In this document: positions 8,324-31,161 of the stretch, piece after piece | Layout: the number at the start of each line of letters is the position of its first letter | Numbering within the stretch: position 1 is the stretch's first letter | Assembly: GCA_024638265.1 (NCBI GenBank) | Contig: JAHEKQ010000023.1 | Span: forward strand, 1 to 41,529 | DNA length: 41,529 nt | DNA from: Flammeovirgaceae bacterium | Lineage (GTDB): Bacteria; Bacteroidota; Bacteroidia; Cytophagales; Cyclobacteriaceae | Reading direction: 5' to 3' | Program-made: the position numbers and the translations under genes | Notes under the pieces: generated by a model | Database searches by the model: none | Seen by the model: only the letters and a program-made list of their open reading frames with translations | What the model was told of the DNA's origin: nothing

Positions 8324-11300
8324 TGATTTCTGCTTTTATCCAGGGCAAAATACATTTGAATATTTCCCTTACCCTTCGCACTGATCTTACCCCTGCTCTC
8401 AAACTTAAATTCGTCTTTGAGAAGTTGATAAGTTGCTGATGAAACATTGACCCTGCCGGGTTCACCGGCTGATTCCATTCGGGAGGCTGTATTTACCGTA
8501 TCTCCCCAAATATCGTAGGCAAATTTTCTTGTACCCACCACTCCTGCTACCACTGGACCTGAATGCAATCCAATCCTGATCCTTAGCTCCGGCAGTCCCT
8601 CCCGCTTTCTCCCCTTATTAAACTTGTCCATGTATTCTTTCATTGCCAGCGCCATCTGAAATGCACTCTTAGCATGATCAGAAGACAATACGGGCAAGCC
8701 CGCCGCACACATATAGCTGTCGCCGATGGTTTTTATTTTTTCAACACCGAACTGGCTGGTCAATTGGTCAAATGCACTGAAGCAGGTATCAATTGCCGTT
8801 ACGATTTCTTCGGCTGTCAGGCTTTCTGAAGTTTTTGTGAAATCCACAAAGTCAGAAAATAGTACCGTTACGTTATCAAATTTTCTCGGGCGGGTCTTGC
8901 CCATCACTTTCAATTCCTCAGCGGTTTCCTCCGGAAGGATATTATGAAGCAGGTCATCCGATTTTTTCTTTTCCTCAGCGAGTTCCGCAGTCCTTTCCTC
9001 AACTTTCTGTTCCAGCTGCCGGTACAAGATCGCATTGTCAAGGGAAATCGCTATCTGGCCGCTCAAGAGGCGTAAGAGTTCGATCCTGCTTCGGTTGAAA
9101 ATTCCCGGCATATCCCGGTGTTCGAGGTATATTAACCCTATTACCCTCCCTTGTTTTACGATGGGAAGGCAAAGCAAGGCCTTTGGCTCGATGGACTGGA
9201 TATAATTATCCCCGCTAAACTTCTTTTCTTCCTCAGGGGTATTGATCACCACCATCTCCCCCGTTCGGATCAAGTATGTGATTACGCTTTCAGGGTAATC
9301 ATCGGGATTCACAGGTATATTTTGAAGCACCTTGGTTTCACCGTGTTTGCCCTCATACCGGCCCTGCACAAACCATTGCCCGTTGGCCTCAAGAATCAGG
9401 GCTCCCCTCTGAGCACCGGCATTTTCCACTAAAATCTCAATCAGCCTTGAAATTAGCTTTGATAATACCACCTCACCCGAAATTGAGGTGGAGGCTTTCA
9501 ACACCGTAGCAATATCAAGACTACTATCCCTTTGATAGGTTTTAGTGAGAGTAGTAGTAGTGGAAAATTCTGATTCAGCCCTTGAAACCGTTGTAATGAA
9601 TGAGGGATATTTCTTCTCCAACTCCCTCATCTTGGCTTCTGCGCCCCACTCCAGATAGCGATTGTGGGAAGCTCTCAAGTAATATTCTGCCAGGTCCTGG
9701 CTCTCCTCACCTACGTAAAACAATCCAGCCAATTCAAGTGCAAGCGCCTCATCATTCAGGTACTCGGTCTTTGTTGCTCCGGCAATTGCACGGTCATAGA
9801 CTAGCCTTGCCTCGCCTTTTCTTCCCTTAATTCTCATTAATTCCGCATTGATCAGGAGGTAGCGGTGCTCAAAATTTTCCGGAGCCGACTTGGCCCATTT
9901 CTTCAGCTTATTCCTGTTCTTCCTGGCCCTCGACAGGCTGCCTTTCGTTCCTCCACTATCCTCCCATAGTCTGATATGATTCAGTGCCTCGTAAAACAGA
10001 AGATTGGGGATCTCAAATTTAGCAAGGACGGCCTCCAATAGCTTCCTTGCTTTCACCCCATGCTCGTAGGCCATTTCATGATCCCCAAAGTGATAACCCA
10101 GTATAACCTTGTTAAAATGTATGAAGAATGTACCTGTCTGATCATTGTTTTCGAGGTTCACCTTCATCCTTTCCTCTTCATTATAGGCTTCCCCCGTCAA
10201 TGTCAGCGGATTTTCGGACCTCCCCATAAAATTCAACATCGCCTGGCGATATACTTCATTGTAGTAGAAGTTCGTCATCTGTTTGAACTGGCGATAACTC
10301 TGTGAGTAATTGCGGGTTTCCTCTTCGAGTTTCACCAGGGGTTTGCCGCATAAATACGAGTGAATGCAATAGATGTTGGTATTTACACAAGCAAATTCGA
10401 TCGCACCAGTCTCCAGGCCAATATGATATGAATCCTTCAATGGAGGAAGGGTATTTTTAATATGCTCCTTCCAAAACAGGATAAGGGCATATGTGGTAAC
10501 GTAAATCTGTGCCTTCCATTCCTTGGCATCCAGTTTGTTGAGGAGGTCTATGGCCAGGCGGCCGAATTTATTGCCGGTTTTCATGAATTCGAGTACTCCA
10601 CACATCAAGACACCATAAGAGCCATAAGCAAATGCACTTACCGGGGAATTTCCATACTTGAGTGACAGTTGGACCATTCGAAAAGCCAGTACAGGCACCA
10701 GGGTTGGTGTGGCCCAATAAACAGAAGGCATGATATCCGCTCCTATACGCAGGGCTGCTTTTTTCTTTTCATCCAACATTTCCGGACGGTTAAGAAGATC
10801 CTCTTCCGACTTTCCACGAAGCATGAATGCAGTAATGGAGAGGTCCTTGAAAACGTGTAACATATTTGGCTTTTTCGGGAATCGCTCCCCTAGTTCCGCG
10901 AGTATTTCGAGCCCGGTTTCAATTGCTTCGAGCAGTCGATTTTGGGCCTTATAGGCATGTATCCTTGTCTCAAAGGGTTTTACGCGTTCCAATACATCGG
11001 AAGTTTTAGACACGGTTATTTCAAACAGCCTATCCACTTCATCAAATAAACTGCACAGGTATGCCGCCTCCAATGCTTCAGTGTGAAGGGACAGGGAAAG
11101 GTCATAATACTGATCCCAGCAATCATCCCCGAGAAGAGAGATGCCCGTACCCAGGTATTCAAAAGCATTTTCAAATGCCGAATTCTCCTTTGCCTTGATA
11201 CCCGCTCCAAGGTTTAAGTTTGATAGGAGGTCAAGTTCATCCTTCGTTAAGAGAGATATGGCCTGATTCCATTGGTTGACCAGGTCGAACAGTTTTTCAT

Positions 11301-13460: not shown

Positions 13461-15956
13461 TTATTCCTCTTTGCCTACAGTGATTGATTTTACGGACAGA
13501 AGAGGTTTCCCACTATAGCTGATTCCCTGGGTAATCAATAAATAATTGGCTGATTCGTCGGAAGTATAGAAGTTAAATTCTGTGGGATTCCCATTTCGTA
13601 CCATAATGGTGGGCTCCCAATGAAGAACACTCCGGAAATCGGGCTTATTGTGTTCTTCCAAACGCTCATCATACCTGGGAGCATAAAAAGCATCCGGTAT
13701 TTGATAACCTATAAGCTCAAACGTGCTGATCCCCCAATCCAATCGCTCTTGTTGGGCATTAGACCCACCTCGACCTCCTGAACTGGTCACGTTGGTGTAA
13801 ATTGCAATGACACCGCCATAGGCAAGGGCTCCATACATGGAAGCTTGCGAGGTTGAAAGAATGTCGATAAACTCTACAGTAGTTCCATCCATTGTAGCGA
13901 GATATGGGATATCCACCTGTACGTTGTCCACCAGGATCAGCGGACTGGCATCTACCTGGAAAGATGCCGCACTGCGAATCACAATCTGGTAATCCGGGAA
14001 AGTTCCGAATATTTGAATTCCAGGGAGTCTTCTTAACATATCAACCACCCGGAACTGGTTGCCTATGTTTAGGGAATCCATTACAAGTCGCCTGGTCGGA
14101 GTTCGGTACATCTGGCCCCGGTTGAATGGACTATCCTTCCAGGTATCCCTGTACCCCTGGATGGCAACCTCATCAAGAACAATCGTCTCATCATCGAAAT
14201 TATAGGCGTCGTAAATCTGGTTTATGATCTTGGTGGATTGCTGGTAGTCCTTAAATCCAACCGTGGAAGGATTTGTTTTATACAAACTATCCAACCGCGA
14301 TACAGAGAGCCATTGCTTTTCTGAAAGCAGGATCTTTACAGGGTCGTCCTTATCTTTCTCCCGGTTCTTTTTCTTATTTCCGGTTGATTTACTTCCCTGA
14401 ATAATCGCGGTAACAGAATCAGCAAACTGCAGGTCGCGGAAAATGAAATTTCCTGCCGGATCCGTTTCGACGGCTCGGTCTGACATTAAGTCCTCGAGAA
14501 AAGACAATTGAACAACCCCCTCCACAGATTTCTCTTCCTTGTAAAAATCAACCATTCGTCCTGAGATGCTCAATCCAAATTCAGGTTTATATTCGATTTC
14601 CTGTTTCTCTTTCATTACCTCATCCCAGTCAAACCTTCTCCAGCCCTGTGTCAGCATTAGTGCATCCAGCTCTTCTTCCCTTTGCAGGTTTTTCTCGTCA
14701 AAGTATCTCCCGATATCCTCGATATATCCCCTGATATCAGACTCGAGCATGAGGTAATACTCAATAGAGGCTACTTCTCCCATGTTGGACAAGTACTCCG
14801 GTCGAACGATTGACATTGAGAGTTGTGCCGAATCCGTTCCACTTAAATCCACTTTAAGATTGACTTTTTCTCTTATGCCATATTCCGATTTTGCGGTTGT
14901 AACATCAATCGCAGCCTTATTCCCACTGTCTATAAAAACTAACCTTTCACAAAGAGCTTGTCCTTGCTTATTGAACAATGTAATGGTCAGGATGCCCTTT
15001 TCAAGATCCTGGGTTGAAAGTCGGGTAGTGAGGCTCTTCATTCCCGCCTTACCGGAGAAAAAAGCTACGGGAATCCCGGAAGTATGCAGAAGCAAAGAAT
15101 ATCCTTCCATTGAAACACCCCGGTTATGCGCTGCCTGGATGGTCAGTGAGCCGTTCCAAATCCGGGCCGTTAAAAAATAGCCTGACTCTTCTGTAGTGGG
15201 TAGTTCATATCGAAAACCATCACCATCTATTTGTGCAAAATAATTTATGCCGGGCAAAGCTGCCACGGCCACTTTGCCAATTCCCACCTCATTGGTCTCA
15301 AAATTTGAAACCCCCACGCCGTTTTCGTCAAAGATCTTCCCGGAAATCTTCCTTCCGAAACCGTCTGGTGCTACGGCCTTTACTCCCAGTACCGTAAGCG
15401 GTCCTGATACCAGGTGTCCTCCTTCCGGAAAAAACCTTAAGTCAATTCGATTGTTGGAACCCGTCTCACTGGTCTGAGCACTGGTAACTATTTCTTCCAC
15501 CAACACAGATTCCGGTGTTTCCAGGTCAATTACGGTGATCTCTTTTCGGAATATAAACTCAGAACCCCGGTTGAGCATATACTTTGTATAAGCGCGAAGT
15601 ATATAATTCCCTCCTTCAGCACCTGCCGGAAGGAGAATATTTCCGCGCGCGAAACCCTGGTCAATATAAAGCTTGCGAACAGCAATAGGCTTTAGTCTCT
15701 CATTCAGGATCTCGACATACAATACTTTTGACAAGTCCATAGGGACATGAGTTGCCGCATTTAAGACATAGGCCTTGAACCATATCATTTGATTGGAACT
15801 GTAAATGTCCCGGTCGGTGTGGACAAATACCTTTTCCTGGGGGTAGGATTTAATATAATTATCCAGTCGATTGGAAATCTCCTCAACCACCCCCTGGGAA
15901 TTTCCACTTACCAGGCAGGATGCAGACAGTGCTATTATCAATATGATCTTTCGCAT
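13461..15956 (-). CDS. MG2-domain protein with TonB-receptor plug, no barrel
   Basis: 831 residues with an N-terminal signal peptide (MRKIILIIALSASCLVSG). The N-terminal part (KVFVHTDRDIYSSNQMIWFKAYV) is an alpha-2-macroglobulin-type MG2 domain, followed by several beta modules including a regulatory-like segment at ~470-530. Residues ~630-740 form a TonB-dependent-receptor plug (VVDMLRRLPGIQI, LILVDNVQVD, VEFIDILSTSQASMYGALAYGGVIAIYT). Only ~90 residues follow the plug, so the usual 22-strand barrel is missing. Known: such MG2-plug proteins are frequent in Bacteroidota and are thought to be periplasmic or outer-membrane associated; their role is not settled. It lies 71 bp upstream of the kinase/cyclase gene on the same strand. 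A weak -7-like box (TATATTTA on the - strand, 15973-15980) precedes the start. Confidence 0.85.
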   Translation of the reverse strand: MRKIILIIALSASCLVSGNSQGVVEEISNRLDNYIKSYPQEKVFVHTDRDIYSSNQMIWFKAYVLNAATHVPMDLSKVLYVEILNERLKPIAVRKLYIDQGFARGNILLPAGAEGGNYILRAYTKYMLNRGSEFIFRKEITVIDLETPESVLVEEIVTSAQTSETGSNNRIDLRFFPEGGHLVSGPLTVLGVKAVAPDGFGRKISGKIFDENGVGVSNFETNEVGIGKVAVAALPGINYFAQIDGDGFRYELPTTEESGYFLTARIWNGSLTIQAAHNRGVSMEGYSLLLHTSGIPVAFFSGKAGMKSLTTRLSTQDLEKGILTITLFNKQGQALCERLVFIDSGNKAAIDVTTAKSEYGIREKVNLKVDLSGTDSAQLSMSIVRPEYLSNMGEVASIEYYLMLESDIRGYIEDIGRYFDEKNLQREEELDALMLTQGWRRFDWDEVMKEKQEIEYKPEFGLSISGRMVDFYKEEKSVEGVVQLSFLEDLMSDRAVETDPAGNFIFRDLQFADSVTAIIQGSKSTGNKKKNREKDKDDPVKILLSEKQWLSVSRLDSLYKTNPSTVGFKDYQQSTKIINQIYDAYNFDDETIVLDEVAIQGYRDTWKDSPFNRGQMYRTPTRRLVMDSLNIGNQFRVVDMLRRLPGIQIFGTFPDYQIVIRSAASFQVDASPLILVDNVQVDIPYLATMDGTTVEFIDILSTSQASMYGALAYGGVIAIYTNVTSSGGRGGSNAQQERLDWGISTFELIGYQIPDAFYAPRYDERLEEHNKPDFRSVLHWEPTIMVRNGNPTEFNFYTSDESANYLLITQGISYSGKPLLSVKSITVGKEE

Positions 15957-19131: not shown

Positions 19132-21993
19132 TTAGAACGACCCGATCAGAACGAAAGGCGCCCAGAAATAGGGGTGGCTTTTCGGTTCATCGAATGCATT
19201 AGACAGTTCGGAGGACCATTTTACAGATGTAAGGGACCGGTCCGGCATAATGCTGAATTTTCGATCCATCAAGTCTCTTTGGGCCAGAGAGAGTGCGGTT
19301 GCCGTCGGATAGCCTGCCTTTATATATTGATGAAGCCGGGTCATCAGTAGGCTGGTCGAAGCATCATCCACCTTCCAAAGACTTACAATAATAGCAGGGC
19401 TACCTGCATAGAGAAAGGCACGGCTCAGACCTGTTAGCTCATCCCCTTCGGAAAGATCGCCTAAGCCAGTTTCGCAAGCACTTAGAATTACTAATTCTGA
19501 ACTCAGATCCAGGTCAAAGATTTCGTTTACAGTCAACAGGCCATCATTCTCATCGTCCGGGGACATTAATAGATATGAATACAGAGGTTGGAAACGATTG
19601 AAAGTACCATGTGTAGCAATGTGGATCATATCGGAATCTCCGCTTTCCGTTTTAAATCGTCCCTCAGAAGATTCACTTTCCAACAGAGACACATGGTCAT
19701 CGTATATCTGACCGATATGTTCAATTTCAGATTTTGTCCCGGGAAGGGCTGTAAAGCCTCCCAGTTGCAGATCTCCCAGCGCCATACTCAACAATTTACT
19801 TTTTCCCGCGTTGAGTTCAGCTTCCTTCTGGGTGGCAAAAACAGACGCCGATGGCACATAAAACATATCGAATTCAGTGACCAGATACTCTCCCGTGGGT
19901 TTTCGAAGTGCCTGGAATGGCATGAAATGCAAGCTTGAGTGTGGCACAATTCCTACAGTCTTTATTCCTTCCAATTCAGCCTCAATGGGTTCAATAAGCG
20001 CTACGTAGAGCTTAGTAAGCACATCATCAAGGACATCGTCTGTCCTGAACTTGATCATATTGCGGGCACCTGTGACATTTCTGAGAATCTCGTTACGACT
20101 CAAACCAGTAGGATGGACCGATAGCTTATCGTGAGTCAGAATGAAGACATAAGAACCCAAATCGCTCAACCAGAATTCAATCAGTGCAGCATCTGCCGGT
20201 AGTTTTTCTCGAATTTCTGCCAGGGAGGACGGTTCAATAGAAACTATTGAACTGTAGGATGCATTTTGGAGTTTTATCTGATCCAGCAAGTCGAGGTATT
20301 CATCGGTGATATCATTCAGCTGCAACCGCATCATTCGATTATTGGAACGCTGCAATTCCTTGTTCAGCTTTTCAATCTTTTTTCTGAGTTCAAGCTCTTT
20401 GTTAAGCAATGCCTCGTCCCCTGAGCTTTTTGCATCAATTTTCTTATTTGAGACCATATCAAGAAAAGTTCGCGCACGCGCCTTTTCACTTATGGTAAAA
20501 GCCATTTCCCTGGGATTGTATCCCTCTGCTTCGAAAAGATCCTCCTGTTTTATAAGAAGATTCAATTGATGATCGAATACGGCTGCTTTGTCGTTAAGGA
20601 AACTCGTTTTAAATTCCTCAAGGGTCAGGTTTCCCCGAATACCCTCAACAATGCTTGCCGATGACTCATAATATTTCAGGGCTTGCAGGTAGTTTTGCTT
20701 TTTTTCTTCCAGCCGGCCCCTGACCAGTAGTGCCTGCCAGTTGGTCTCCTGCTTTACGCTGAATTCAATGCTCCTTTCTACATACTCCTCTGATTTATCA
20801 AGCTCATCCGTCTCCAGGTATAGTGAAGCTAATTTCAAAGCTGCCTGGGCCTGCCCTTCCCGGCTACTGGTACTACCAAGAAGTTCTGCTGCCTGAAGAT
20901 AAAACTTGAGTGCTTCATCCCTGTTGCCCTCTGCAAGTTCACCATCACCCAGTCTCAGGCAGGCAGTGCCGGCCCCAATATTCGAATTACTTTGTGCGAG
21001 GTAATCTTTGGCAGCATCCATATCGCCCATTCGCATTTTAATGGAAGGCACTTGTGCTGATGAGCCAATTGAATTCTGTTGAATATCCAAGGCTTTCCTG
21101 TAATATTCATTGGCTTTTTCCTTATCGCCGATACTTTGATAGGTATCCCCAATTTTAATGTTGGCCATGATAATCTGCGGCAATATTGAGGACTTTTCCG
21201 CTTCTTTGAGTGCATCGAGTCTCACCTTGAGCTCATCTTCCAGGAGTCCCTTTAGTGAATAGGCATTTGCCAATGCGTTTAATTGTCGGGCAGTTGTGAA
21301 CCCTTGAGCAGTAGCTAAATCCCTACTATTATTAATCCTTATTATTCCATCATCTATTTCACCAAACTCCAGGTGAACCAATCCCCTTAACAGGTCCGTT
21401 TCAATAATTCCCCTTACTTCCCCACGAATAGTTTCATAGATCTGCTTCGCTATTTCAATATTTTCACGCGTCTCTGTATAATTACCTAGGGTGAGATTTA
21501 CCTGAGCAAGAGAAAGCCAAGTATCCGCGACCAGGAGTTTGCGGTCATCCTTCAAGCTCGATTCCAGGCCTTTTGAAGAACTTATTGACGATTGTAGATA
21601 CGATAATGCGTTGTCGTATTCTCCGAGGTAGGAATATACGATGCCCAATTGCCTTTCATCCTCGATAACATTGAGCTTATTGTTTGGAAGATCATTATCT
21701 ATTGCGAGTGCCTGGACTAGTTTATCCTTTGAAATCTCGTATTTCCCCTGTGTTGAATAAGCATGGGCCAGTCGCCTGAGGATATTGGCTTCCATGGCCG
21801 GGTTCCTGTATACGCCAAGGGTTGGCGCCAGTCGCAAATATTCTTCGTATTGAAGTATGGCGTTATTATAATCATTTAAATTATTGTATTGATCGCCCAT
21901 CGTTATAGCACGGGTGGCCATGATGGATGGGGTGGTGCAAGATGAAATGAACAGGGACGAGATTAAAACAGCTCCTAAAATTATTCTCCTCAT
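19132..21993 (-). CDS. TPR-CHAT protease lipoprotein
   Basis: 953 residues. Lipoprotein signal with lipobox LFISSC (C19); the residues after it (TTPSIM) are not acidic, so a periplasm-facing position is likely. Residues ~30-470 hold about ten TPR units (NNAILQYEEYLRLAP, RRLAHAYSTQGKYEIS). A charged helical linker spans ~500-580 (LELRKKIEKLNKELQ). Residues ~600-953 form a CHAT domain with the caspase-type dyad: H795 in HIATHG and C840 in LSACETG, then SRAFLYAG, SLWKVDD and the closing FWAPFVLIGSF. Known: CHAT proteases are caspase-related cysteine peptidases, and TPR-CHAT proteins occur in several prokaryotic defence and signalling systems. The ATG overlaps the stop of the last barrel gene (ATGA), so it belongs to the propeller/barrel block. 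Inferred: a protease regulating or processing envelope proteins of that block. Confidence 0.93.
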   Translation of the reverse strand: MRRIILGAVLISSLFISSCTTPSIMATRAITMGDQYNNLNDYNNAILQYEEYLRLAPTLGVYRNPAMEANILRRLAHAYSTQGKYEISKDKLVQALAIDNDLPNNKLNVIEDERQLGIVYSYLGEYDNALSYLQSSISSSKGLESSLKDDRKLLVADTWLSLAQVNLTLGNYTETRENIEIAKQIYETIRGEVRGIIETDLLRGLVHLEFGEIDDGIIRINNSRDLATAQGFTTARQLNALANAYSLKGLLEDELKVRLDALKEAEKSSILPQIIMANIKIGDTYQSIGDKEKANEYYRKALDIQQNSIGSSAQVPSIKMRMGDMDAAKDYLAQSNSNIGAGTACLRLGDGELAEGNRDEALKFYLQAAELLGSTSSREGQAQAALKLASLYLETDELDKSEEYVERSIEFSVKQETNWQALLVRGRLEEKKQNYLQALKYYESSASIVEGIRGNLTLEEFKTSFLNDKAAVFDHQLNLLIKQEDLFEAEGYNPREMAFTISEKARARTFLDMVSNKKIDAKSSGDEALLNKELELRKKIEKLNKELQRSNNRMMRLQLNDITDEYLDLLDQIKLQNASYSSIVSIEPSSLAEIREKLPADAALIEFWLSDLGSYVFILTHDKLSVHPTGLSRNEILRNVTGARNMIKFRTDDVLDDVLTKLYVALIEPIEAELEGIKTVGIVPHSSLHFMPFQALRKPTGEYLVTEFDMFYVPSASVFATQKEAELNAGKSKLLSMALGDLQLGGFTALPGTKSEIEHIGQIYDDHVSLLESESSEGRFKTESGDSDMIHIATHGTFNRFQPLYSYLLMSPDDENDGLLTVNEIFDLDLSSELVILSACETGLGDLSEGDELTGLSRAFLYAGSPAIIVSLWKVDDASTSLLMTRLHQYIKAGYPTATALSLAQRDLMDRKFSIMPDRSLTSVKWSSELSNAFDEPKSHPYFWAPFVLIGSF

Positions 21994-22952
21994 AAAATGT
22001 ATCTCAGAATTACCGTAAAGTTTTTATCAGCACCGGTATTCTTACCTTTTAAGGGTAATCCAAATGCCTGAATCACACGGAAACTCTTGATCTGGAAGCT
22101 AACGAAGGGAGTATACTGAAGCAAATAGGTTGATTCAGCTTCTTCCGTCAACAAGCGTTCACGTTTATTCTGGCTGTAAAATAATTGCTGCCGCAATGCG
22201 ATCCAATCATTAAGCTGAATGTTAAAATTGGCAGTAAGAGAATAATAACTGGATCCCTGAAATTCTGAAGGCGAAACATCGCCGGCATAAAAAACTTTTT
22301 CTCCTCGGAAACCATACTTATAGTCAAAAAATAACTGAGTAGAAAAGGGGAAAAAGCTTTTTCGATATAATATTGTTCCCGATAACCCAAGGGCCCCTGT
22401 ACCAATACCTTCTTTCACTTCAAATAACCCTGCAGTATCTGTTTGTTCCTGAATTCCCGCCTTACCTGTGGGAAGAATAACTCTTAAGGTGGAAACCAGT
22501 CCAGAACCAGCAATATTTTCTGGAATCAGTTGATAATGTACTCCCAGGGAAATATCTCCGAGTCCTACTCTTTTTCCACGACTTTCCTGGATCACAGCAT
22601 AATAGCTGCTTGGGATGGTGAATTCTGAAGATGACCGGACAACCGTAGACTCGTAAGAAGTCGATAGTTCCAGCTCAATTTGATCTGACAAACCATAATT
22701 TATATTCGGAAAAATCAAAATTCCCGAAGCCCACAGATTATCAGTAAAATATTCTTTATCCCCTGAATCATTAAATAATTGATCAATAATGGTGGTACTA
22801 AATGCACTCTGAATAACAAAAAATCCCTTCTTAAGCGTTAAGGGTTCATTAACGAAAGTTCGGTACTTAATCTCACCGGGTATCACCTGGTTTTCCTGCC
22901 CGGTTAAAGTCCATGAGTATAAGAGTAGCGCTACGGTTATAATCCTCCTCAT
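21990..22952 (-). CDS. Outer-membrane beta-barrel protein, cassette 2 barrel B
   Basis: 320 residues with a signal peptide (MRRIITVALLLYSWTLTG). The mature N-terminus carries a motif shared with the cassette 1 copy: P(G/A)EIK(Y/R)RT(F/V)VNE(P/V)L(T/S)L. The rest is alternating amphipathic strands ending in NFTVILRYIL, as in a transporter-type outer-membrane barrel (a Phenol_MetA_deg-like fold is my best guess). It starts 1 bp after the stop of barrel A and its stop overlaps the CHAT protease start. Function unknown: pore, adhesin base or partner of the propeller lipoprotein. Confidence 0.8.
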   Translation of the reverse strand: MRRIITVALLLYSWTLTGQENQVIPGEIKYRTFVNEPLTLKKGFFVIQSAFSTTIIDQLFNDSGDKEYFTDNLWASGILIFPNINYGLSDQIELELSTSYESTVVRSSSEFTIPSSYYAVIQESRGKRVGLGDISLGVHYQLIPENIAGSGLVSTLRVILPTGKAGIQEQTDTAGLFEVKEGIGTGALGLSGTILYRKSFFPFSTQLFFDYKYGFRGEKVFYAGDVSPSEFQGSSYYSLTANFNIQLNDWIALRQQLFYSQNKRERLLTEEAESTYLLQYTPFVSFQIKSFRVIQAFGLPLKGKNTGADKNFTVILRYIL

Positions 22953-22953
22953 T

Positions 22954-23979
22954 TCAGAAAATGTTAAAAATCAATTTTGCCCTCAGTAGGATAGGTTGAT
23001 TGATATTTCTTCCCGATACCACATAGCCGAATTCCTGTTGATACCATATTCTGGTAGAGGCAATCAAGTTGCCACCGAATAGCAGACGATTAGATATTTC
23101 ATCTTTGGTAGCTACTTTTTTTGTTCCTATTTGCTTCCAACCTGCAAATCTTGCTTCATAGCTATAGCCAAGATATGTGGAGAAGAACTTGTTAACCTGT
23201 AACTCAATCTTAGCATATGATTGAATAAATGATGGAAAATGAGTCGGATATTTATTTTCCTCATATTCAAAACTATTGTTTTGATATTGATGTAACCATT
23301 GGCTTGTTGAACCATCTCCCACAGGCATACCTTGCGTATACATTATTTCAACAGCCATATCGGACCACCTGTATTTACCACCACCTGTAAAAAATACACC
23401 TGCAGTACCTGAGCCGGGGGCTGTTAGATAACTATATGTCACTTGCTCAAAATCTGTTTGCGCCTCTGTAGAATGCCGAGGTTCCTGTTCACCATAACCC
23501 ATTAAAGGCAACCAAATTCCAGCACCCACCACAATGTCATACTTTTCGAGTGTAAAAGGATATTTCAAGCGTGCGGAAATCTGAAGATCTTCAAGGCCCT
23601 GGGTTTCATATAAGTACGATACGTTCTGGACACCTAAAGCAGAAAATAATACCTGGGATTCTTTTCTTGAAGCTATGTTTTGGCCAAATATATTCATGCT
23701 AAACTCTAGGTAATCCGTAAAACCGTAACTCAGAGAAAATCCATAATCAAAACGGGTATAAGTCTCACCAAAATCATCCAAAGAATATTTCCTTCCCTCA
23801 TTGTCAAACGCTGTCAATCCTGCCCCGATGTTAAACAGGAGCTCTGCCTGCCACTGGTTCTTAAAATTCACCAGCGGCCAGTCCATATTTCTGAGGTTTA
23901 CCAGGAGAGAATCGGAGGCCTGTGAATATGTGACAAGACTCAGAAAGCAGAATACCCCTATGAAGCCAAACGCCTTCAT
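22954..23979 (-). CDS. Outer-membrane beta-barrel protein, cassette 2 barrel A
   Basis: 341 residues with a signal peptide (cleavage after TYSQA). Immediately after it comes a signature shared with the cassette 1 copy: DSLLVNLRNMDWPLV here, DSLVYNLRNIDWPLV there. A (D/E)(S/N)EG(R/N)K(Y/F) motif follows about 30 residues later. The body is alternating strands and it ends in LIFNIF, an aromatic C-terminus expected of a BAM-inserted barrel. The start overlaps the propeller lipoprotein stop by 4 bp. The role is unknown, but the tight coupling suggests a complex with that lipoprotein. Confidence 0.8.
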   Translation of the reverse strand: MKAFGFIGVFCFLSLVTYSQASDSLLVNLRNMDWPLVNFKNQWQAELLFNIGAGLTAFDNEGRKYSLDDFGETYTRFDYGFSLSYGFTDYLEFSMNIFGQNIASRKESQVLFSALGVQNVSYLYETQGLEDLQISARLKYPFTLEKYDIVVGAGIWLPLMGYGEQEPRHSTEAQTDFEQVTYSYLTAPGSGTAGVFFTGGGKYRWSDMAVEIMYTQGMPVGDGSTSQWLHQYQNNSFEYEENKYPTHFPSFIQSYAKIELQVNKFFSTYLGYSYEARFAGWKQIGTKKVATKDEISNRLLFGGNLIASTRIWYQQEFGYVVSGRNINQPILLRAKLIFNIF

Positions 23980-24968
23980 GGCGATATGTATTTAAATATT
24001 CCACTGAAAGTGGCAATCCACAAATCTCCCTTCGAGTCTACTATTACCTCCGTTGTAATATCGCTTGGTATTTCGCTATTATCCGTAAAGTAGGGCATGT
24101 ATGTGAGTCCATCAGTACTGATCGCCCCCAATCCAAGGGTGGTAAACCACATGTGCTTATTACGATCCTCAACAATTCCTGTAATCTCAATATTAAAATC
24201 AATGAAATTATCATTTCGAAGAAAGACCGGTTCGAAACTATTCCCATCATATTTAGTGACAAAAGGACTGTCCTTGTATCCTATCCATATATTTCCCCGG
24301 CTATCTTCATAAATATGAGTGGGGCGGTCTCCATGAATTCCATTGGCAGAAGTATAAAGAGTGTAGCTATTCGGACCCGTATGTTTCCGCAAGCCTCCAT
24401 CGGTAGCGCTCCAAATCACCCCATTGGAATCTTCGAAGAAATCATTCACCCAATTACAGTTTATACAGGAATTGTCCTGGTAAAAGGACCAGCCATTGTC
24501 AAAAACCCATAGGCCGTAGCCCGCATGACTCATCCACAACCTGCCTTGCGTGTCTGAAAGGAGTGCGTATACGACAAAGTCACCGGCCCCTACATCGGCA
24601 GCAGTGGTCGCATACCAGGAGTTTCCATCGAGATACGCCCAGCCATCGTAGGTGCCAACAATCATACTACCCTGGTATTCCGTGATAGACAGGATACTTA
24701 CATCTGCAAGTCCATCGGAAATATCGAAAGACTGGTAGCTACTACCGTCAAAGCGGGAGATCCCACTGTCAAAGGTCCCTATCCAGATATCATTGTTGCT
24801 GTCTTCGTAAATGGTCCATATGGTACTTGAGGGGAGGCCATCGGACTGGTCGATCTTTACCCATTGATCCACCTCTTCCGGTTGGATGAGATCTGAGGTA
24901 TCCTCACAACCTACAATTAAGAATATAAGAAGTGAGTATACCAAAATGGAAAATCGATATTTTCCCAT
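23976..24968 (-). CDS. Seven-bladed propeller lipoprotein, cassette 2
   Basis: 330 residues. Lipobox IVGC (C21) is followed by EDTSD; acid residues just after the lipid cysteine resemble Bacteroidota surface-export signals. The rest holds seven two-component-regulator-propeller repeats (EDSNNDIWIGT, DTQGRLWMS, EDSNGVIWSATDGGL, EDSRGNIWIG, DSKGDLWIAT), enough to close one seven-bladed propeller with no further domain. A CxxC pair (C168, C171 in CINCNWVN) lies at the blade 3/4 boundary and is conserved in the other copy. Known: such propellers usually form the sensor part of hybrid two-component systems; here it stands alone as a lipoprotein. Inferred: surface or periplasmic binding component partnered with the two barrels. 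Confidence 0.88.
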   Translation of the reverse strand: MGKYRFSILVYSLLIFLIVGCEDTSDLIQPEEVDQWVKIDQSDGLPSSTIWTIYEDSNNDIWIGTFDSGISRFDGSSYQSFDISDGLADVSILSITEYQGSMIVGTYDGWAYLDGNSWYATTAADVGAGDFVVYALLSDTQGRLWMSHAGYGLWVFDNGWSFYQDNSCINCNWVNDFFEDSNGVIWSATDGGLRKHTGPNSYTLYTSANGIHGDRPTHIYEDSRGNIWIGYKDSPFVTKYDGNSFEPVFLRNDNFIDFNIEITGIVEDRNKHMWFTTLGLGAISTDGLTYMPYFTDNSEIPSDITTEVIVDSKGDLWIATFSGIFKYISP

Positions 24969-25041
24969 GGCGACTCAATCTATGCGTAAGAAGTTACGAA
25001 ATAATTTTGGCTATCTAAGTAAATTGGGCTCTTAACGTGGC

Positions 25042-25072
25042 GAATAGTACTATTGAGGACATGAACAATAGT
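25042..25072. promoter_or_regulatory. Operator-like cluster of three AATAGT half-sites
   Basis: GAATAGT (25042-25048), ACTATTG (25049-25055) and CAATAGT (25066-25072). The first two form a perfect 12-bp palindrome, AATAGTACTATT; the last two form an inverted repeat with a 10-base spacer. The cluster lies 74-104 bases before the cassette 2 propeller start, in the only sizeable gap of the block. It could bind a dimeric regulator or mark an internal promoter; as a hairpin it lacks a T-run. Confidence 0.4.
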
Positions 25073-25118
25073 CCACAAAATCTATTGAATCCCCCGGTAG
25101 AATTATTATTCTGTTAAC

Positions 25119-26114
25119 CTAGAATATGTATTTAGTCAGGATCAAATAACCCAAATTAGCGGGGGCATTTTTTAAACCTAATGGAATGTTCATCCCTTGT
25201 TCTATTCGGAATTGACCCAATTGAAAACTGAGGTAAGGGAAATACTGTAGTAGCTGAGTGTCCCCGATCGGAGGATTGTAACCCTCAACCACTTCCTGCT
25301 TTTGATTCATATAAAGCAGGCCATGGCGAAAAGCCATCCAATCGTTCAGTTGGAAATTAAAAGAAGCTGTGGCAGAGAATATTTTTCGGCCTATAAAATC
25401 ATATTCCCTCAGGGTACTGGTTAAACCTTGCACGATGTACACTTTATTACCTCCAAAGGGTATCCTGTATTGCAGATAGATTTCGGCGGAAAAAGGAAAA
25501 AAGACTTTCCTGTACCTTAAAATAGGTGTGAGGGAGTATTCACCTAGACCCGTTGGAGCACTGAAATTAAATTTTGAAGAAGTATCTTCAAGTTCTGAAA
25601 AATCCCCCTTTCCGGTAGGTATACCTATTGCTGCTGATACTTTTAAACCAGACCCGAATGCATCTGCTGGAATTAACTGGTAGGCTAACCTAACTTCCAT
25701 GTCACCAATTCCTTTTAATGGCACCTCACTTACTACGCGTTGGCTATACACTCCCCCCGGGTATTCAACCAATAGAGTTCCTATTCGCCTTTGAGAGGAC
25801 AAATTTAGATAGACTTCTGTCTCAATCCGATCAGTAATCCCATAGGTAATGGCCGTTAGGCTGTAAAGTCCGTTTAAGGTCTGGTTGCTAGGATCTACAA
25901 TTTTATTCCCGTCTTCGTCAAAGGTTTTATTTAATGATAGAAGTACCAGGGATCCCCCTACTGCAAAATAGCCTTTGGGCAATGATAAAACTTCGTTAAC
26001 TACAGTCCTTCTCTTTATTTCGGCGGGCAGGATTGACTCTTCATCCTGGGCTAAAAGGTTAAGATGAACTGAACTAAAAAGAGTTACGATTAATAATACA
26101 ACTGCTCCTTTCAT
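25119..26114 (-). CDS. Outer-membrane beta-barrel protein, cassette 1 barrel B
   Basis: 331 residues with a signal peptide (cleavage after LLAQ). The motif LPAEIKRRTVVNEVLSLPKGYFAVG matches the other barrel B position by position (longest shared run is short, so the copies are old). Amphipathic strands follow, with GLGEYSLTPILRYRK near the middle, and the protein ends in LILTKYIF. Its ATG directly abuts the stop of barrel A with no gap. Probable outer-membrane protein of unknown function. Confidence 0.8.
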   Translation of the reverse strand: MKGAVVLLIVTLFSSVHLNLLAQDEESILPAEIKRRTVVNEVLSLPKGYFAVGGSLVLLSLNKTFDEDGNKIVDPSNQTLNGLYSLTAITYGITDRIETEVYLNLSSQRRIGTLLVEYPGGVYSQRVVSEVPLKGIGDMEVRLAYQLIPADAFGSGLKVSAAIGIPTGKGDFSELEDTSSKFNFSAPTGLGEYSLTPILRYRKVFFPFSAEIYLQYRIPFGGNKVYIVQGLTSTLREYDFIGRKIFSATASFNFQLNDWMAFRHGLLYMNQKQEVVEGYNPPIGDTQLLQYFPYLSFQLGQFRIEQGMNIPLGLKNAPANLGYLILTKYIF

Positions 26115-27152
26115 TTAAAATTTATTAAAAGTGATCAATGTGGAAAAAACGACCGGTGCAATTTCTGACTTTCCTCCTACCGGGATGGAAATCATCTGCC
26201 GGAGCCAGAAATTCGGAGATGAAATAAGGTCCAGTCCCAGGTTCAGGTTGGTCACACTGGTGTTGAGCAGGGCAATTTTATTATCGAAAGGTTGCTCCCA
26301 TCCGCCCCTGGAACTCAATTTTTGAAATCCTAAAAAAGCATTAAAAAAGGGGTTGACCTGGTATTCCACCAATCCCTGCAGATCGAGCCTTTCGGGCATC
26401 TGTACATCATATTCCCGGGATGTGTAATTGTAATCATTACCATCTAATGTGTAGGTCCAGTAGCTGTTTTTCGATTCTGATGAAGGAAGTATATAGTCTA
26501 CGAAAATACTGGCAGCGATATTTGCCCCCCGCACTTTCACTGCACCACCAAAATTATAGGAAAGGACTCCATTGCCCGGATTGGTAATATCGTGAAAAAC
26601 AATTTCCTCCGTACCCGCACTTTCACTTGAGTTTCTGTTTAAGGGTTGCTGAAAACCGGAGTTACCGGTGGGCAAAAGTACGCCTGCCGAAAGGATGATA
26701 TCATATTTTTTCAATGAGGGCGGAAACTTGAAGTCCAGGGAAAATCCCAGGTCATCAAATCCTTTCACTTCACTCATTGCAGAAATGCTCTGGACAAAAA
26801 GTTGACCATCGACCTCCTCAGATTGAATTGAAACTGTTTCGAATCTCCGTAATTCGTTTATATGCCTTATTGAGGACCTCAACGCAATAAAATCCGTGAT
26901 TCCATACTGAATATTTGCCGATACGGCTGTTGCGAAGTAAGCCTCCTGCCGATCTATCAGAACAAATTTATTCCCCTCAGAATCGTAACCCCGGCTACCA
27001 AGACTGTAGTCGGCTCCGAGTTGAGCTTTGACTTGACCTTTAAGCGGAACGAGTGGCCAGTCAATATTTCTCAGGTTATATACCAGGGAGTCCCTGGACT
27101 GTGAAAAAGCTGTAGTAGATAAGAATAAAAGGAAAATAACAAGAATTCTCAT
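26115..27152 (-). CDS. Outer-membrane beta-barrel protein, cassette 1 barrel A
   Basis: 345 residues; signal peptide MRILVIFLLFLSTTAFSQ, then the shared barrel A signature NLRNIDWPLV. The predicted strands continue to a C-terminal LITFNKF with a final aromatic residue. The start overlaps the cassette 1 propeller by 4 bp (ATGA) and the stop abuts barrel B. Orthologous in position to the gene at 22954-23979, with which it shares short motifs but modest overall identity. Confidence 0.8.
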   Translation of the reverse strand: MRILVIFLLFLSTTAFSQSRDSLVYNLRNIDWPLVPLKGQVKAQLGADYSLGSRGYDSEGNKFVLIDRQEAYFATAVSANIQYGITDFIALRSSIRHINELRRFETVSIQSEEVDGQLFVQSISAMSEVKGFDDLGFSLDFKFPPSLKKYDIILSAGVLLPTGNSGFQQPLNRNSSESAGTEEIVFHDITNPGNGVLSYNFGGAVKVRGANIAASIFVDYILPSSESKNSYWTYTLDGNDYNYTSREYDVQMPERLDLQGLVEYQVNPFFNAFLGFQKLSSRGGWEQPFDNKIALLNTSVTNLNLGLDLISSPNFWLRQMISIPVGGKSEIAPVVFSTLITFNKF

Positions 27153-28141
27153 TTCACGATGTATTTAGACACTCCATTAAAATAAGTTGAGACCCAAATA
27201 TTACCATCGCGGTCCCTAATGATATCCGTTATACTATTACCGGTCAAATCACTGTTCTCCGTGTTGAATGATCTGAAGAAATTTAGGTCAGACTGAACCA
27301 GTCCCCCGGTATCCTCAAGTCCAATCCAAAACAAACCATCCCGATCTTGTGTGATTTGAGAAATAGGAACAATGAATTCCTTGGCCAGGTCATTTGCCAA
27401 ATAATAGGATTCAAAATCAGACCCATCAAACTTTGTGATGTAAGGGGAGTCAAAGTATCCAATCCAGAGATTCCCTTCGAAGTCTTCGTAAACCGAATAC
27501 ACATAATTGGATTTCAAGCCATTACTGGTATCCCAAAGAGTGTAGTTATTGCCATTGAACTTCTTGAGTCCCCCATCGGTACCGGCCCATACCTCGCCCT
27601 TGGAATCTTCAAAAAGCACATTTACCCAATTACATTCCCAGCAATCGAAATCATAAAGGTCAGTAGTCGAAGTATCATCGGCACGCCAAAGTCCATCATC
27701 GGTTCCAAACCATAAATTTCCATTGCTATCTCCCAATACACTGTATACATAGAAATAGGAAAGCCCGAATTGCTGGGCGGTCAACTGGTACCAGTCGCTT
27801 CCGTCAAAGAAGCTCATCCCGTCGAATGTTCCCAGGACAGTGAATCCCTCCCATTCGGAAATGGCTAGAATGGTATTGTCGGTTAGCCCGTCAAAAATAT
27901 CATAACTGGTATAGCTATTCCCATTGTAGACAGTAACACCATCATATACCGTTCCCATCCAGATTTTGCCGTCACTGTCTTCGTATAGAGAAAATACTTC
28001 ATTACCTGCGAGTCCATTATTTGATTTGATGGTAACCCACTTCTCTACATCATCCGGTTGGATCAGATCACTGTTATCCAGGCAGGAAAGTTGTACTAGT
28101 AGTGTCGTCAGCCAAAAACCTGACCTAATAATATTCCTCAT
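27149..28141 (-). CDS. Seven-bladed propeller lipoprotein, cassette 1
   Basis: 330 residues, the same length as the cassette 2 copy. Lipobox VQLSC (C20) is followed by LDNSD, again acid-rich. The segment after it, DLIQPDDVEKWV, matches DLIQPEEVDQWV in the other copy. Seven propeller repeats follow (EDSDGKIWMGT, DSNGNLWFGTDDGLW, EDSKGEVWAGTDGGL, EDFEGNLWIG, DRDGNIWVST). The CxxC pair is kept with different middle residues: C167 and C170 in CWECNWVN. It starts 14 bp after the acyl carrier protein stop, so the two are likely co-transcribed. Probable surface or periplasmic sensor or binding protein of the cassette. Confidence 0.88.
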   Translation of the reverse strand: MRNIIRSGFWLTTLLVQLSCLDNSDLIQPDDVEKWVTIKSNNGLAGNEVFSLYEDSDGKIWMGTVYDGVTVYNGNSYTSYDIFDGLTDNTILAISEWEGFTVLGTFDGMSFFDGSDWYQLTAQQFGLSYFYVYSVLGDSNGNLWFGTDDGLWRADDTSTTDLYDFDCWECNWVNVLFEDSKGEVWAGTDGGLKKFNGNNYTLWDTSNGLKSNYVYSVYEDFEGNLWIGYFDSPYITKFDGSDFESYYLANDLAKEFIVPISQITQDRDGLFWIGLEDTGGLVQSDLNFFRSFNTENSDLTGNSITDIIRDRDGNIWVSTYFNGVSKYIVK

Positions 28142-28155
28142 ATGTTCAATAGATT

Positions 28156-28392
28156 TTATCCCAGTTTCGCCTCAATATATTTCACTGCATCAGAAATAGT
28201 CCCAAGCTGCTCCGCATCTTCATCGGGGATTTTAATATTAAATGTTTGCTCAAACTCCAGTACGAGTTCAGCGTAATCAAGGGAATCCACTCCAAGGTCC
28301 TTCACCAGGTTGGCATCATCGGTAATCTCGGAAGGAACGATTCCCAGTTTATCAATAAGTATTTGCTTAATTCTATTCTTAATATCGTCCAT
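28156..28392 (-). CDS. acpP: Acyl carrier protein
   Basis: 78 residues with all marks of a type II fatty-acid-synthase acyl carrier protein: acidic, helical, with the phosphopantetheine serine S37 in GVDSLDYAELV and the C-terminal ISDAVKYIE. Known: ACP carries growing acyl chains for fatty-acid, lipid A and lipoate synthesis. Housekeeping acpP usually lies beside fabF or rnc; here no fatty-acid gene is nearby and it leads the propeller/barrel block with a 14-bp gap. It may be the sole genomic ACP that happens to sit here, or a second, specialised ACP. The symbol therefore names the family and not a proven housekeeping role. Confidence 0.93.
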   Translation of the reverse strand: MDDIKNRIKQILIDKLGIVPSEITDDANLVKDLGVDSLDYAELVLEFEQTFNIKIPDEDAEQLGTISDAVKYIEAKLG

Positions 28393-28445: not shown

Positions 28446-29792
28446 TTAAAACTTGAGCAGGAACTCGGTGCCCTCTTCGAGCCGTGTCTTTACACCCAGT
28501 GTTCCCTGGTGCTTTCTCATGATCTGCCGGGACAGGCTGAGCCCGATGCCGGAACCTGATTTTTTGGTGGTGAAAAACGGGATGAAAATTTTCTCAAGGG
28601 CTTCCTCATCTATACCCGGGCCGTTATCCCTTACGCTGATGGTCGGCCTTGCCTTCTCACCAAAATAGGCGGTGATAGTAATGGATTTGTCACTATCTTC
28701 ATCAAATGCCTGCACGGCATTCTTCACCAAATTGATCATGACCTGTGAGATCATTCCTTTGTCTGCCTGTATTACCATATTGGCCGGCTGAATATCTATG
28801 GTGAGCTCTACTCCGGATTCATTAATTTCATTTCTCAGAAGCGTAGTGACTTCTTCGATCAGTTTGGTGACGCTGATCTCCTCGGTCTTGGGATTCGGTA
28901 TATGGGTCAGGTTGCGGAAGTCCTGTACGAAACGCATTAGACCTTCGCCCCTTCTTCTAATAGTTTGAATAGCCAACACAACATCTTCAAGATCTTCGGC
29001 AGGCATCTTCACTACTTCTTTTTCCTGCTCAGGAAGGCTTTCTTCCACGGTATTGGCCAGTGAAGTAATCGGAGTAATGGAATTCATTATTTCATGGGTG
29101 AGTACCCGGACGAGATTCTGCCAGGCTTCCATTTCCTTTTCTTCCAGTTCACTCTGAATGTTCTGTATGGAAACCAGCTTAAATTCTTCTCCCCTCAATG
29201 TGAGTTGGATTGCATAAATGGCCAATTGAATAATGTCTCCACCAATTTCCAGTCTTACAAGGTCCCGGCCACCCGTCCTCAACCGGTTGAAGCTGTCCAC
29301 GAGGTTCGGACTCAATGTCCCCAGTTCACTTATATTTTCCAGATTATTGATCTTGAGCAGCTTTTTCGCAGCTGTATTTATGATTTGTACATCTCCATTC
29401 CGGTCGAAAGTGATCAGCCCGATACCAACATGTGAGACAATGTTCTTCATGTACTGGAACTCGTCTTCTTTCTCCCTGGTCACCTTTCTCAGCTTTTCAA
29501 AGACCTTGTTGAATTCCCTGTTCAGCCTGCTGAGATTTTCATTCCCAGACCCGGTACTGTAATTAAAAGAGAAGTCATCAAATTCGATGGATTTCAGAAA
29601 ATCTGTCACATCATTTTCCTTTTCTTCGAGGTATTTAATGAGGTAAAAGACTTGTAGCGCAGCAGCAGCAAAGAAAAACAGGCCAATAATGGCTCCCCCC
29701 TCCTCAAGGATACTGGTAACCATTAAGAGAAGAGTAAGGGTTAAGAGTGCCACCCTGATTAATAAGTTGGTGCGTGGATTTCTAAAGTCCAT
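28446..29792 (-). CDS. NtrY-like PAS sensor histidine kinase
   Basis: 448 residues. Two transmembrane helices at ~10-28 and ~33-53 with almost no periplasmic loop, so the signal is probably membrane or cytosolic. Coiled linker at ~55-112; PAS domain at ~113-215; phosphoacceptor H233 in LTHEIMNSITPI; N box NLVKNAVQAF (353-363); G1 DNGPGID (389-395); F box FIPFFTTK; G2 GSGIGLSLSRQIM. Known: this type autophosphorylates and pairs with NtrC-family activators. It overlaps the regulator gene by 11 bp, so the two form a cognate pair. Its stop is 53 bp before the acyl carrier protein start on the same strand. Confidence 0.92.
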   Translation of the reverse strand: MDFRNPRTNLLIRVALLTLTLLLMVTSILEEGGAIIGLFFFAAAALQVFYLIKYLEEKENDVTDFLKSIEFDDFSFNYSTGSGNENLSRLNREFNKVFEKLRKVTREKEDEFQYMKNIVSHVGIGLITFDRNGDVQIINTAAKKLLKINNLENISELGTLSPNLVDSFNRLRTGGRDLVRLEIGGDIIQLAIYAIQLTLRGEEFKLVSIQNIQSELEEKEMEAWQNLVRVLTHEIMNSITPITSLANTVEESLPEQEKEVVKMPAEDLEDVVLAIQTIRRRGEGLMRFVQDFRNLTHIPNPKTEEISVTKLIEEVTTLLRNEINESGVELTIDIQPANMVIQADKGMISQVMINLVKNAVQAFDEDSDKSITITAYFGEKARPTISVRDNGPGIDEEALEKIFIPFFTTKKSGSGIGLSLSRQIMRKHQGTLGVKTRLEEGTEFLLKF

Positions 29793-31161
29793 GCTTTTCC
29801 AGTCGCCTGTAAAGGGAAGCCCTGGTCAGCCCCAACTCCCGGGCAGCCTTCGAAATATTACCGTCATACATGTTCAGGGCCTTCAGAATTGTATTCTTCT
29901 CCACTTCGTCAAGATTAAGGTTTGCCTGGTCTCCATTGGATCCGAACTCGACGGTCTGACTCAAGAAGAAGAAATCCTCAGCATTAATTTCATCCTTGTC
30001 GCTCATGATCACTGCGCGTTCTATGGCATGCTGTAATTCCCTGATATTTCCGGGCCATGTATAAAGTTGGAGCTTTTTCATTGCCGATTCCGATACCGAT
30101 TTTACCGGCTTTCGGTATTTTTTCCCATACTTCATCAGAAAATGATTGGTCAGTAAGGGAATGTCGTCGATCCTGTCCCGCAAGGGGGGAATTCGAATCT
30201 CTACAGTATTGATCCTGTACAGGAGGTCTTGCCGGAATGTACCCTCATTTACCATATCGTGAATGGGCATGTTGGTTGCGGAGACCAATCTTATATCAAT
30301 ATCGAGGCTTACATTACTCCCTATAGGTGTTACATGACGTTCCTGGAGAACGGTAAGCAACTTGGATTGAAGTGGGGTGCTCAGGTTTCCTATCTCGTCA
30401 AGGAAAATGGTCCCCTGGTTGGCGATCACAAATCGACCGGACCGGTCCTCATGCGCATCGGTGAATGATCCTTTTTTATGACCGAACAATTCACTCTCAA
30501 ACAGGGTTTCTGTTATGGCTCCCATGTCAACCGAAACAAAGACGTTCTGGCTTCGTTGTGATTTTAGGTGAATAGCACGGGCCACCAACTCTTTGCCTGT
30601 GCCGTTTTCTCCCAGTATAAGCACATTGGCATCGGTATCGGCCACTTTATCAATGAGATTGAACACCTTCATCATGGGTTTGCTGTTCCCAATGATGTCC
30701 CTGAATGGCTTGTTAAGGTCCGCTTCAAGTTGCTCTTTCGCTTTCTTTAGTTTATCTACCTCACGGTATGACTTTTTTAGCTTGATCGCCGTGTTGATGG
30801 TTGCCAGCAGCTTTTCGTTCTGCCAGGGTTTGAGTACAAAATCAGTAGCACCGGCTTTTAGAGCATTCACCGCCATTTCAACATCCCCAAAAGCAGTGAT
30901 TAGGATAACCACCGCGTCCCGATCCTTCTCCAGGATCTGCTCCAGCCAGTAGAATCCCTCCTTGCCCGAAGTGATATCCTTACTAAAATTCATATCCAGC
31001 AAAATGACATCATAAGTGTCATTATTAAGGAGAAAAGGAATCTTTTTCGGGTTTTTTTCTATGATTACCTGGTGCGCATGCTTCTTAAGCAGAAGTTTCG
31101 CTGCCAACAAGACATCCTCATCATCATCAATCATGAGGACTTTTCCTAAGCTATTTTCCAC
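29782..31161 (-). CDS. NtrC-family sigma-54-dependent response regulator
   Basis: 459 residues from a GTG start; no in-frame ATG lies between the upstream stop and residue 10, and the GTG gives a normal receiver N-terminus. Receiver at ~5-125 with phospho-acceptor D56 (VILLDMNF) and K111. AAA+ domain at ~153-390 with Walker A GENGTGKE (184-191), Walker B TIFLDE (251-256) and arginine-rich sensor region. The sigma-54 contact loop reads GSFTDA (231-236) in place of GAFTGA. C-terminal Fis-type helix-turn-helix (ISKAARELGLTRASLYRRLEK). Known: such proteins open sigma-54 promoters when phosphorylated. First gene of its unit; the partner kinase follows. I saw no clear -24/-12 promoter before the cassettes, so its targets are unknown. 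Confidence 0.93.
   Translation of the reverse strand: MENSLGKVLMIDDDEDVLLAAKLLLKKHAHQVIIEKNPKKIPFLLNNDTYDVILLDMNFSKDITSGKEGFYWLEQILEKDRDAVVILITAFGDVEMAVNALKAGATDFVLKPWQNEKLLATINTAIKLKKSYREVDKLKKAKEQLEADLNKPFRDIIGNSKPMMKVFNLIDKVADTDANVLILGENGTGKELVARAIHLKSQRSQNVFVSVDMGAITETLFESELFGHKKGSFTDAHEDRSGRFVIANQGTIFLDEIGNLSTPLQSKLLTVLQERHVTPIGSNVSLDIDIRLVSATNMPIHDMVNEGTFRQDLLYRINTVEIRIPPLRDRIDDIPLLTNHFLMKYGKKYRKPVKSVSESAMKKLQLYTWPGNIRELQHAIERAVIMSDKDEINAEDFFFLSQTVEFGSNGDQANLNLDEVEKNTILKALNMYDGNISKAARELGLTRASLYRRLEKHGL

Follow-up and report, generated by a model that had tools for sequence, protein, structure and literature searches.

Gene content of the block

The window analysed here is one contig (G000:C42; 41,529 nucleotides) of the 3.63-Mb assembly of a Flammeovirgaceae bacterium of the family Cyclobacteriaceae, and its positions 19132-28392 are filled by eight open reading frames (ORFs) on the - strand, transcribed in the order acyl carrier protein (ACP), P1, A1, B1, P2, A2, B2 and CHAT. 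P denotes a propeller lipoprotein, A and B two types of outer-membrane barrel, and CHAT a TPR-CHAT lipoprotein. The conserved unit within this block is the set of four genes P-A-B-CHAT, whose order and protein families are well supported. An earlier sequence-only reading of this DNA had described eight consecutive - strand genes with short or overlapping junctions and a single 150-bp gap, and all of this was borne out at that place.

The ACP (78 aa; 28156..28392) was identified by an NCBIfam acyl carrier protein match and by PF00550 (5.9e-17). P1 (27149..28141) and P2 (23976..24968), both of 330 aa, match the Reg_prop family PF07494 with E-values of 7.8e-33 and 7.2e-27, respectively. A1 (345 aa; 26115..27152) was assigned as a barrel from an AlphaFold2 model compared by Foldseek and VIA-align, and B1 (331 aa; 25119..26114) from the match of a nine-row B profile to FapF, whereas A2 (341 aa; 22954..23979) and B2 (320 aa; 21990..22952) were assigned by their identity to A1 and B1; none of the four barrels has a Pfam match above the cut-off. 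The CHAT protein (953 aa; 19132..21993) combines a CHAT domain (PF12770, 7.6e-67) with TPRs. The junctions measure +14 bases for ACP-P1, -4 for P1-A1, 0 for A1-B1, +150 for B1-P2, -4 for P2-A2, +1 for A2-B2 and -4 for B2-CHAT, the gap at 24969..25118 dividing two cassettes. The 400 bases before P2 hold neither a TAnnTTTG nor a convincing sigma-54 site.

The repetition of the trio P-A-B, also claimed in the sequence-only reading, is true of the window but was seen only here among the loci read, five of the others being truncated by contig ends. P1 and P2 are 40% identical, A1 and A2 32%, and B1 and B2 33%. In the tree the two window trios are each other's closest relatives with support of 100/100, indicating that the doubling arose in the lineage of the window, and identities of 31-40% between the trios indicate that it is old.

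Recurrence and distribution of P-A-B-CHAT

The ordered set of propeller, barrel A, barrel B and TPR-CHAT, which the sequence-only reading had proposed to look for in other genomes, was searched for and found at nine loci in seven Cyclobacteriaceae genera, labelled g1, g6, g8, g17, g36, g51 and g52. All four genes are complete at four loci (the window, G577, G572 and G585), and five loci are truncated by contig ends: G562 retains P-A-B and most of CHAT, G377 part of A followed by B-CHAT, G007 P-A at the end of one contig and B-CHAT at that of a second, G050 the end of B followed by CHAT, and G051 P-A and the start of B, its contig ending inside B. As far as the contigs reach, the order is contradicted at none of the nine loci. 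Across loci, the junctions inside these units range from -11 to +16 bases, given the start codons chosen, and the between-locus identity of P, A and B is 20-67%. The repetition of one order at other loci in other genera indicates more than chance.

A search of 390 genomes of the family with the barrel A profile gave any match in 23, and strong matches in eight (G000, G007, G051, G377, G562, G572, G577 and G585). The remaining 15 genomes gave partial matches only, with E-values of 8e-7 or weaker, and in the two of these neighbourhoods that were read (G442 and G625) there was no propeller, second barrel or cassette-type CHAT. The distribution is narrow and patchy, with eight of the 390 genomes recognized by barrel A and, in addition, G050 recognized by CHAT. 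Wider samples, which overlap each other and the family sample, gave weak matches: the barrel A profile partially and weakly matched six genomes besides that of the window in a class sample (345 genomes) and three in a phylum sample (296 genomes), the barrel B profile partially matched 60 others in an order sample (390 genomes) at no more than 52 bits, and a single-sequence search with B1 found one other, weak match in a class sample of 295 genomes. Scanning of twenty of these weak-match regions with the four profiles revealed no P-A-B-CHAT and no CHAT match in any of them. A propeller protein that does not adjoin the barrel is present in three of the twenty (L123, L129 and L131). Four others contain two or three B-like barrels adjoining or near each other (L113, 8154-10386; L114, 8072-10340; L115, 8810-12228; L128, 6593-8770), with no propeller or CHAT nearby.

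The TPR-CHAT protease

CHAT proteases are best known as regulators and effectors in the cytoplasm. The CHAT protein of the window scores 226 bits against PF12770 (cut-off 24) and carries a lipid cysteine at residue 19 (CTTPSIMATRAI). The expected catalytic pair is H795/C840, with HIATHG beginning at residue 791 and SACE at 838; C840, guessed as the catalytic residue in the sequence-only reading, is indeed the cysteine of the latter motif. Both the His and the Cys motif are kept in all six cassette CHAT rows that reach the C-terminus. Judged by motif, H795 and C840 are expected to correspond to the catalytic residues H615 and C658 of Csx29 (PMC10028731).

A CHAT search of 196 genomes of the family gave a match at 1e-20 in 153, and the scores that stand out are those of the window, G050 (447 bits) and G377 (415 bits), the next being 178 bits. 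Owing to truncation of its gene at the contig end, the CHAT of G007 reaches only 168 bits, and G562, G572, G577 and G585 were not among the matches listed for this sample. The phylogenetic tree separates the eight cassette CHATs, as a single clade, from 26 other CHATs of the family with support of 100/100. The tree was built from the parts matched by a 484-residue C-terminal query, with some rows longer and those of G007 and G562 truncated by contig ends, and the background row L070 is a long branch, for which the program gave a warning where it meets the cassette group. The regions around the 26 other CHAT loci, nominally 8 kb on either side and in several cases shortened by a contig end, gave no match to the P, A or B profile at an E-value of 1e-3; six cassette loci run as positive comparison were all detected, although they had contributed to the profiles. 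With one clade and none of 26 other loci carrying P, A or B nearby, the cassette CHAT is tied to the trio, and none was found away from it among the genomes covered, in agreement with the sequence-only reading.

Lipoprotein signals and predicted localization

P1 and P2 score 108.7 and 90.4 bits against PF07494 (cut-off 20.4), and a Reg_prop match at E-values up to 0.001 is found in all eight P members; P1 contains seven Reg_prop-like repeats as counted by eye. A C-x-x-C-N motif, which may form a disulphide or a metal site, is present in seven of the eight cassette propellers (CWECN at residues 167-171 of P1 and CINCN at 168-172 of P2). The lipid cysteine is Cys20 in P1, followed by LDNSD, and Cys21 in P2. 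In all eight rows at least two of the five residues after the lipid cysteine are acidic (LDNSD, EDTSD, TEVDE, TDIDE, TGVDE, SAQED, TNDVE and SNDGD). An acidic signal at this position is reported to direct Bacteroidetes lipoproteins to the cell surface (PMC5080379), and the published K-(D/E)2 and SDDFE forms are not exactly matched by P.

In the cassette CHATs, the 11 residues after the lipid cysteine include no acidic residue in any of the eight rows. A lipobox followed by C-x-[TS]-[PS] was found at their start by regular expression in seven of the eight and by eye in G050. The lipobox expression flags five of the 26 background CHATs, four at residues 57-74, which were not taken as lipoboxes, and L077 at residue 16. 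Since P is acidic after the cysteine and CHAT is not, P is probably located on the surface and CHAT on the periplasmic side. The placement in the sequence-only reading of the propeller outside and the protease facing the periplasm fits these residues, but we still infer it from them.

The two barrels

The AlphaFold2 model of A1, built with four rows, has a mean predicted local distance difference test score (pLDDT) of 75 and a predicted template modelling score of 0.71. Foldseek returned FapF as its best PDB match and a COG4313 channel as the next, and VIA-align gave Z 21.9 over 252 residues for COG4313 (4rl8) and Z 21.3 over 277 residues for FapF. A PDB search by sequence with the A profile gave no relevant match. 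The nine-row B profile has FapF as its only PDB match at E-values up to 1 (6.1e-9; positions 73-264 of 319), and B2 alone gives a weak NCBIfam FapF match (2.9e-4), far under the cut-off. PF13557 matches six of nine B rows and one of nine A rows at E-values up to 1, and neither A1 nor A2 at E-values up to 0.1. The barrels thus resemble the plugged channels FapF and COG4313, A by its predicted fold and B by what appears to be a distant profile relationship. Moreover, the A profile recognizes B rows and the B profile A rows, with E-values of 2e-13 to 1e-6, and A1 aligns with B1 at 1e-7, indicating that A and B are paralogues. A PTG motif is present in all eight B rows that are long enough and in one of nine A rows; FapF has two. 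No Plug or TonB receptor match was found for the four window barrels at E-values up to 0.1.

The stretch between the signal peptide and the barrel is the most conserved part of both A and B. Conservation in this stretch is 0.52 against 0.29 in A (none of 279 windows as high) and 0.545 against 0.362 in B (none of 245), but the window counts are descriptive because the limits used (residues 21-40 in A and 23-50 in B) were set after viewing the alignment. FapF is reported to be closed by a plug helix, A89-G101 (PMC5557850), and the COG4313 protein Pput2725 to be plugged by about 14 N-terminal residues (PMC4493636). The VIA-align alignment of A with FapF starts at residue 25 of A and 88 of FapF, where the model is not confident.

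Neighbouring genes

The ACP had been counted as a member of the unit in the sequence-only reading, and this is not supported: no ACP stands beside the other cassettes read, and the genome has a second ACP, which adjoins a fabF-like gene (G000:C143) and is 49% identical to that of the window. On both grounds the ACP was excluded as a cassette member. What remains of the envelope system proposed for the whole block is a genuine envelope unit of several genes, CHAT being linked to the trio and the ACP left out. Lying 14 bases from P1, the ACP could share the P1 transcript in the window, and a TAnnTTTG match is located 24 bases before its start.

An NtrB/NtrC-like gene pair, a candidate for a dedicated regulator, lies upstream of the cassette in the window (28446-31161, -), and another such pair lies beyond CHAT, facing it, in G577 and G572 (L040, 15035-17768; L041, 2654-5393), so that its position relative to the cassette differs between the window and these two genomes. 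Among all genes tested, the best upstream sigma-54-like match has 7 of 11 fixed bases. In G577, genes for a HlyD-type adaptor and an ABC ATPase come after the NtrB/NtrC pair. A hybrid two-component sensor (L040, 2286-6305), which combines Reg_prop, histidine kinase, receiver and AraC-type domains, is encoded approximately 2.6 kb upstream of the G577 cassette. CHAT is followed in the window by a MacB/FtsX permease.

The GC content of the cassette is 42.5% compared with 44.8% for the window, and gives no clear sign of recent transfer. None of the eight proteins of the block has a C-terminal sorting domain (CHU_C or Por_Secre_tail) at E-values up to 0.1; type IX sorting domains are carried by neighbour proteins elsewhere in the window. 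An ordered trio of a CHU_C adhesin, PorP/SprF and an OmpA-TPR protein, constituting a type IX secretion gene set, occupies 78-5274 (+). The window also encodes a 1689-aa protein in which protein kinase, AAA_16 ATPase, GAF and adenylate/guanylate cyclase domains are fused (8320-13389, -). Its gene overlaps that of a 504-aa protein (6809-8323), for which Pfam gave no match at E-values up to 0.001. A further protein, of 831 aa, has MG2 and TonB-receptor Plug matches (13461-15956, -).

Proposed function and alternatives

With somewhat less than even confidence, we propose that P-A-B-CHAT is a four-gene operon for one outer-membrane complex, a propeller-capped twin plugged channel serviced by a periplasmic caspase-like protease. 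P would be a propeller lipoprotein on the cell surface, binding a ligand and forming a lid on the barrels, and A and B would be paralogous 12-stranded channels of the FapF/COG4313 type, each shut by the conserved segment at its own N-terminus. A lipid anchor would hold the CHAT protein at the outer membrane on the periplasmic side, with its TPR region docking at the plug side of the barrels, where the caspase-like domain would cut a client when the propeller reports ligand; this client could be the plug segment or a polypeptide using the channel. In BtuBG, a seven-bladed propeller lipoprotein is described as capping a barrel (PMC10404256), and secretion through FapF is reported to require the active periplasmic cysteine protease FapD (PMC5557850). 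These two precedents, of a propeller lid and of a plugged barrel with a protease, are the reason that we favour a propeller-capped twin channel with a CHAT-cut plug or client. That the cassette represents a new class of machine, whose surface propeller senses a ligand and opens a pair of FapF-like plugged channels via lipid-anchored, caspase-like proteolysis in the periplasm, with caspase-type chemistry thereby serving a transport gate beyond the cytoplasm, seems doubtful at present.

Several observations weigh against the proposed complex. In G051, the sole CHAT match at E-values up to 1e-20 has background strength (3.9e-25) and the contig ends inside B, so that a trio without CHAT is possible there; in the window itself, CHAT follows the second trio only, leaving the first without one. 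The flanks read have no conserved substrate gene next to the cassette. Other 12-stranded barrels come near FapF in comparison with A (KdgM, Z 20.2; NalP, Z 19.6), and for the fold assignment of A, Foldseek rank and full coverage consequently count as much as Z. Taken singly, B1 and B2 have no match to PF13557 or any other Pfam family even at E-values up to 1, and the AlphaFold2 model of barrel B, with a pLDDT of 35, was not used. The plug segment in the A model is of low confidence, with residues 1-27 under 50, and the limits of the conserved pre-barrel stretches were chosen by inspection, as mentioned above. Furthermore, barrels of the COG4313 type are found elsewhere, in some cases in tandem, with neither P nor CHAT, which means that the fold alone implies no protease partner.

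On sequence alone, the complex may act as a gate, in export or in uptake. As an exporter similar to Fap, A and B would secrete an unfolded polypeptide encoded elsewhere, the CHAT protease would mature it in the periplasm, a role modelled on the supposed maturation role of FapD, and the propeller would nucleate or hold it outside. The FapF-like character of both barrels, the retention by B of the PTG motif and the reported need of FapF-dependent secretion for a periplasmic cysteine protease (PMC5557850) all agree with this. However, the loci read share no substrate-like gene beside the cassette, only about 20-28 residues (by eye) precede the barrel compared with 81 including a coiled coil in FapF, A has mostly lost PTG, and COG4313 fits A equally well, so we regard export as rather unlikely. 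The fit to COG4313, which gives the top VIA-align Z for A and is tied with FapF, would instead suit the uptake of a hydrophobic or other small molecule that is bound by the propeller and admitted by the barrels, CHAT being mainly a TPR scaffold or an envelope-stress protease. COG4313 channels have been implicated in the uptake of hydrophobics (PMC4493636), and the propeller BtuG covers an uptake barrel as its lid (PMC10404256). Against this, the flanks read, in which ORFs unlike those of the window were judged by eye, have no catabolic or inner-membrane uptake gene in common, and a CHAT protein serving only as a scaffold could do without the His and Cys motifs, which every long-enough CHAT row has kept; we regard uptake as unlikely.

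The cassette could also be an extracytoplasmic module for conflict or defence, with the propeller detecting an attacker and the CHAT domain inflicting the damage. The patchy distribution would accord with this, as would the action of CHAT proteases in conflict systems such as Csx29 (PMC10028731). Nevertheless, PADLOC gave weak matches to CHAT only (TPR, 6.6e-8; BovA, 2.7e-6) and none to ACP, P1, A1, B1, P2, A2 or B2, no mobile-element or defence family was present among the window proteins scanned with Pfam, and the CHAT protein looks periplasmic, all of which make a defence role very improbable.

If the propeller-capped, protease-serviced channel is correct, the cassette would define a branch of lipid-anchored, periplasm-facing CHAT proteins wired to outer-membrane channels, and would bring caspase-like proteases into envelope transport. 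The Fap rule of a plugged barrel with a periplasmic cysteine protease would then extend to a second phylum and to another protease family. The cassette makes protease-controlled gating directly testable.

Comparison with known systems

Every part of the cassette belongs to a known superfamily, and the combination is one for which we found no description. The sequence-only reading likewise knew of no described system with this set, which held for the literature searched, most subscription journals lying outside it; one paper followed up, PMC10907252, concerns diversity-generating retroelements.

Fap, reported from Proteobacteria only (PMC3792158), shares with the cassette a FapF-like barrel with a preceding N-terminal segment and a cysteine protease expected in the periplasm and encoded in the same operon. 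In contrast to Fap, the cassette has two paralogous barrels and a propeller lipoprotein, the N-terminus of its barrels is short, as noted above, and its protease is a lipid-anchored, caspase-like CHAT protein, whereas FapD is a C39 protease. No C39 family appeared in the Pfam scans of the window proteins, and Pfam named no FapA, FapB, FapC or FapE among the window proteins scanned, for which neither a dedicated model nor a whole-genome search was used. The COG4313/PF13557 channels (Pput2725, SphA and TcpY) share the fold of A, and PF13557 is matched by the B rows mentioned above, those of the window not among them; the cassette differs in pairing A and B in a fixed order with a propeller and a protease.

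For the TPR-CHAT proteins of the Csx29 type, the likeness lies in a CHAT domain joined to a TPR part, with a profile match to Csx29 structures at about 1e-6. However, the cassette CHAT is a lipoprotein and its clade is separate from the 26 other CHATs of the family, and no CRISPR-associated family was found among the window proteins scanned. The BtuB-BtuG system for vitamin B12 uptake in Bacteroides similarly places a propeller lipoprotein beside an outer-membrane barrel. BtuB is TonB-dependent, whereas the barrels of the cassette are small, lack a Plug match and are accompanied by a protease.

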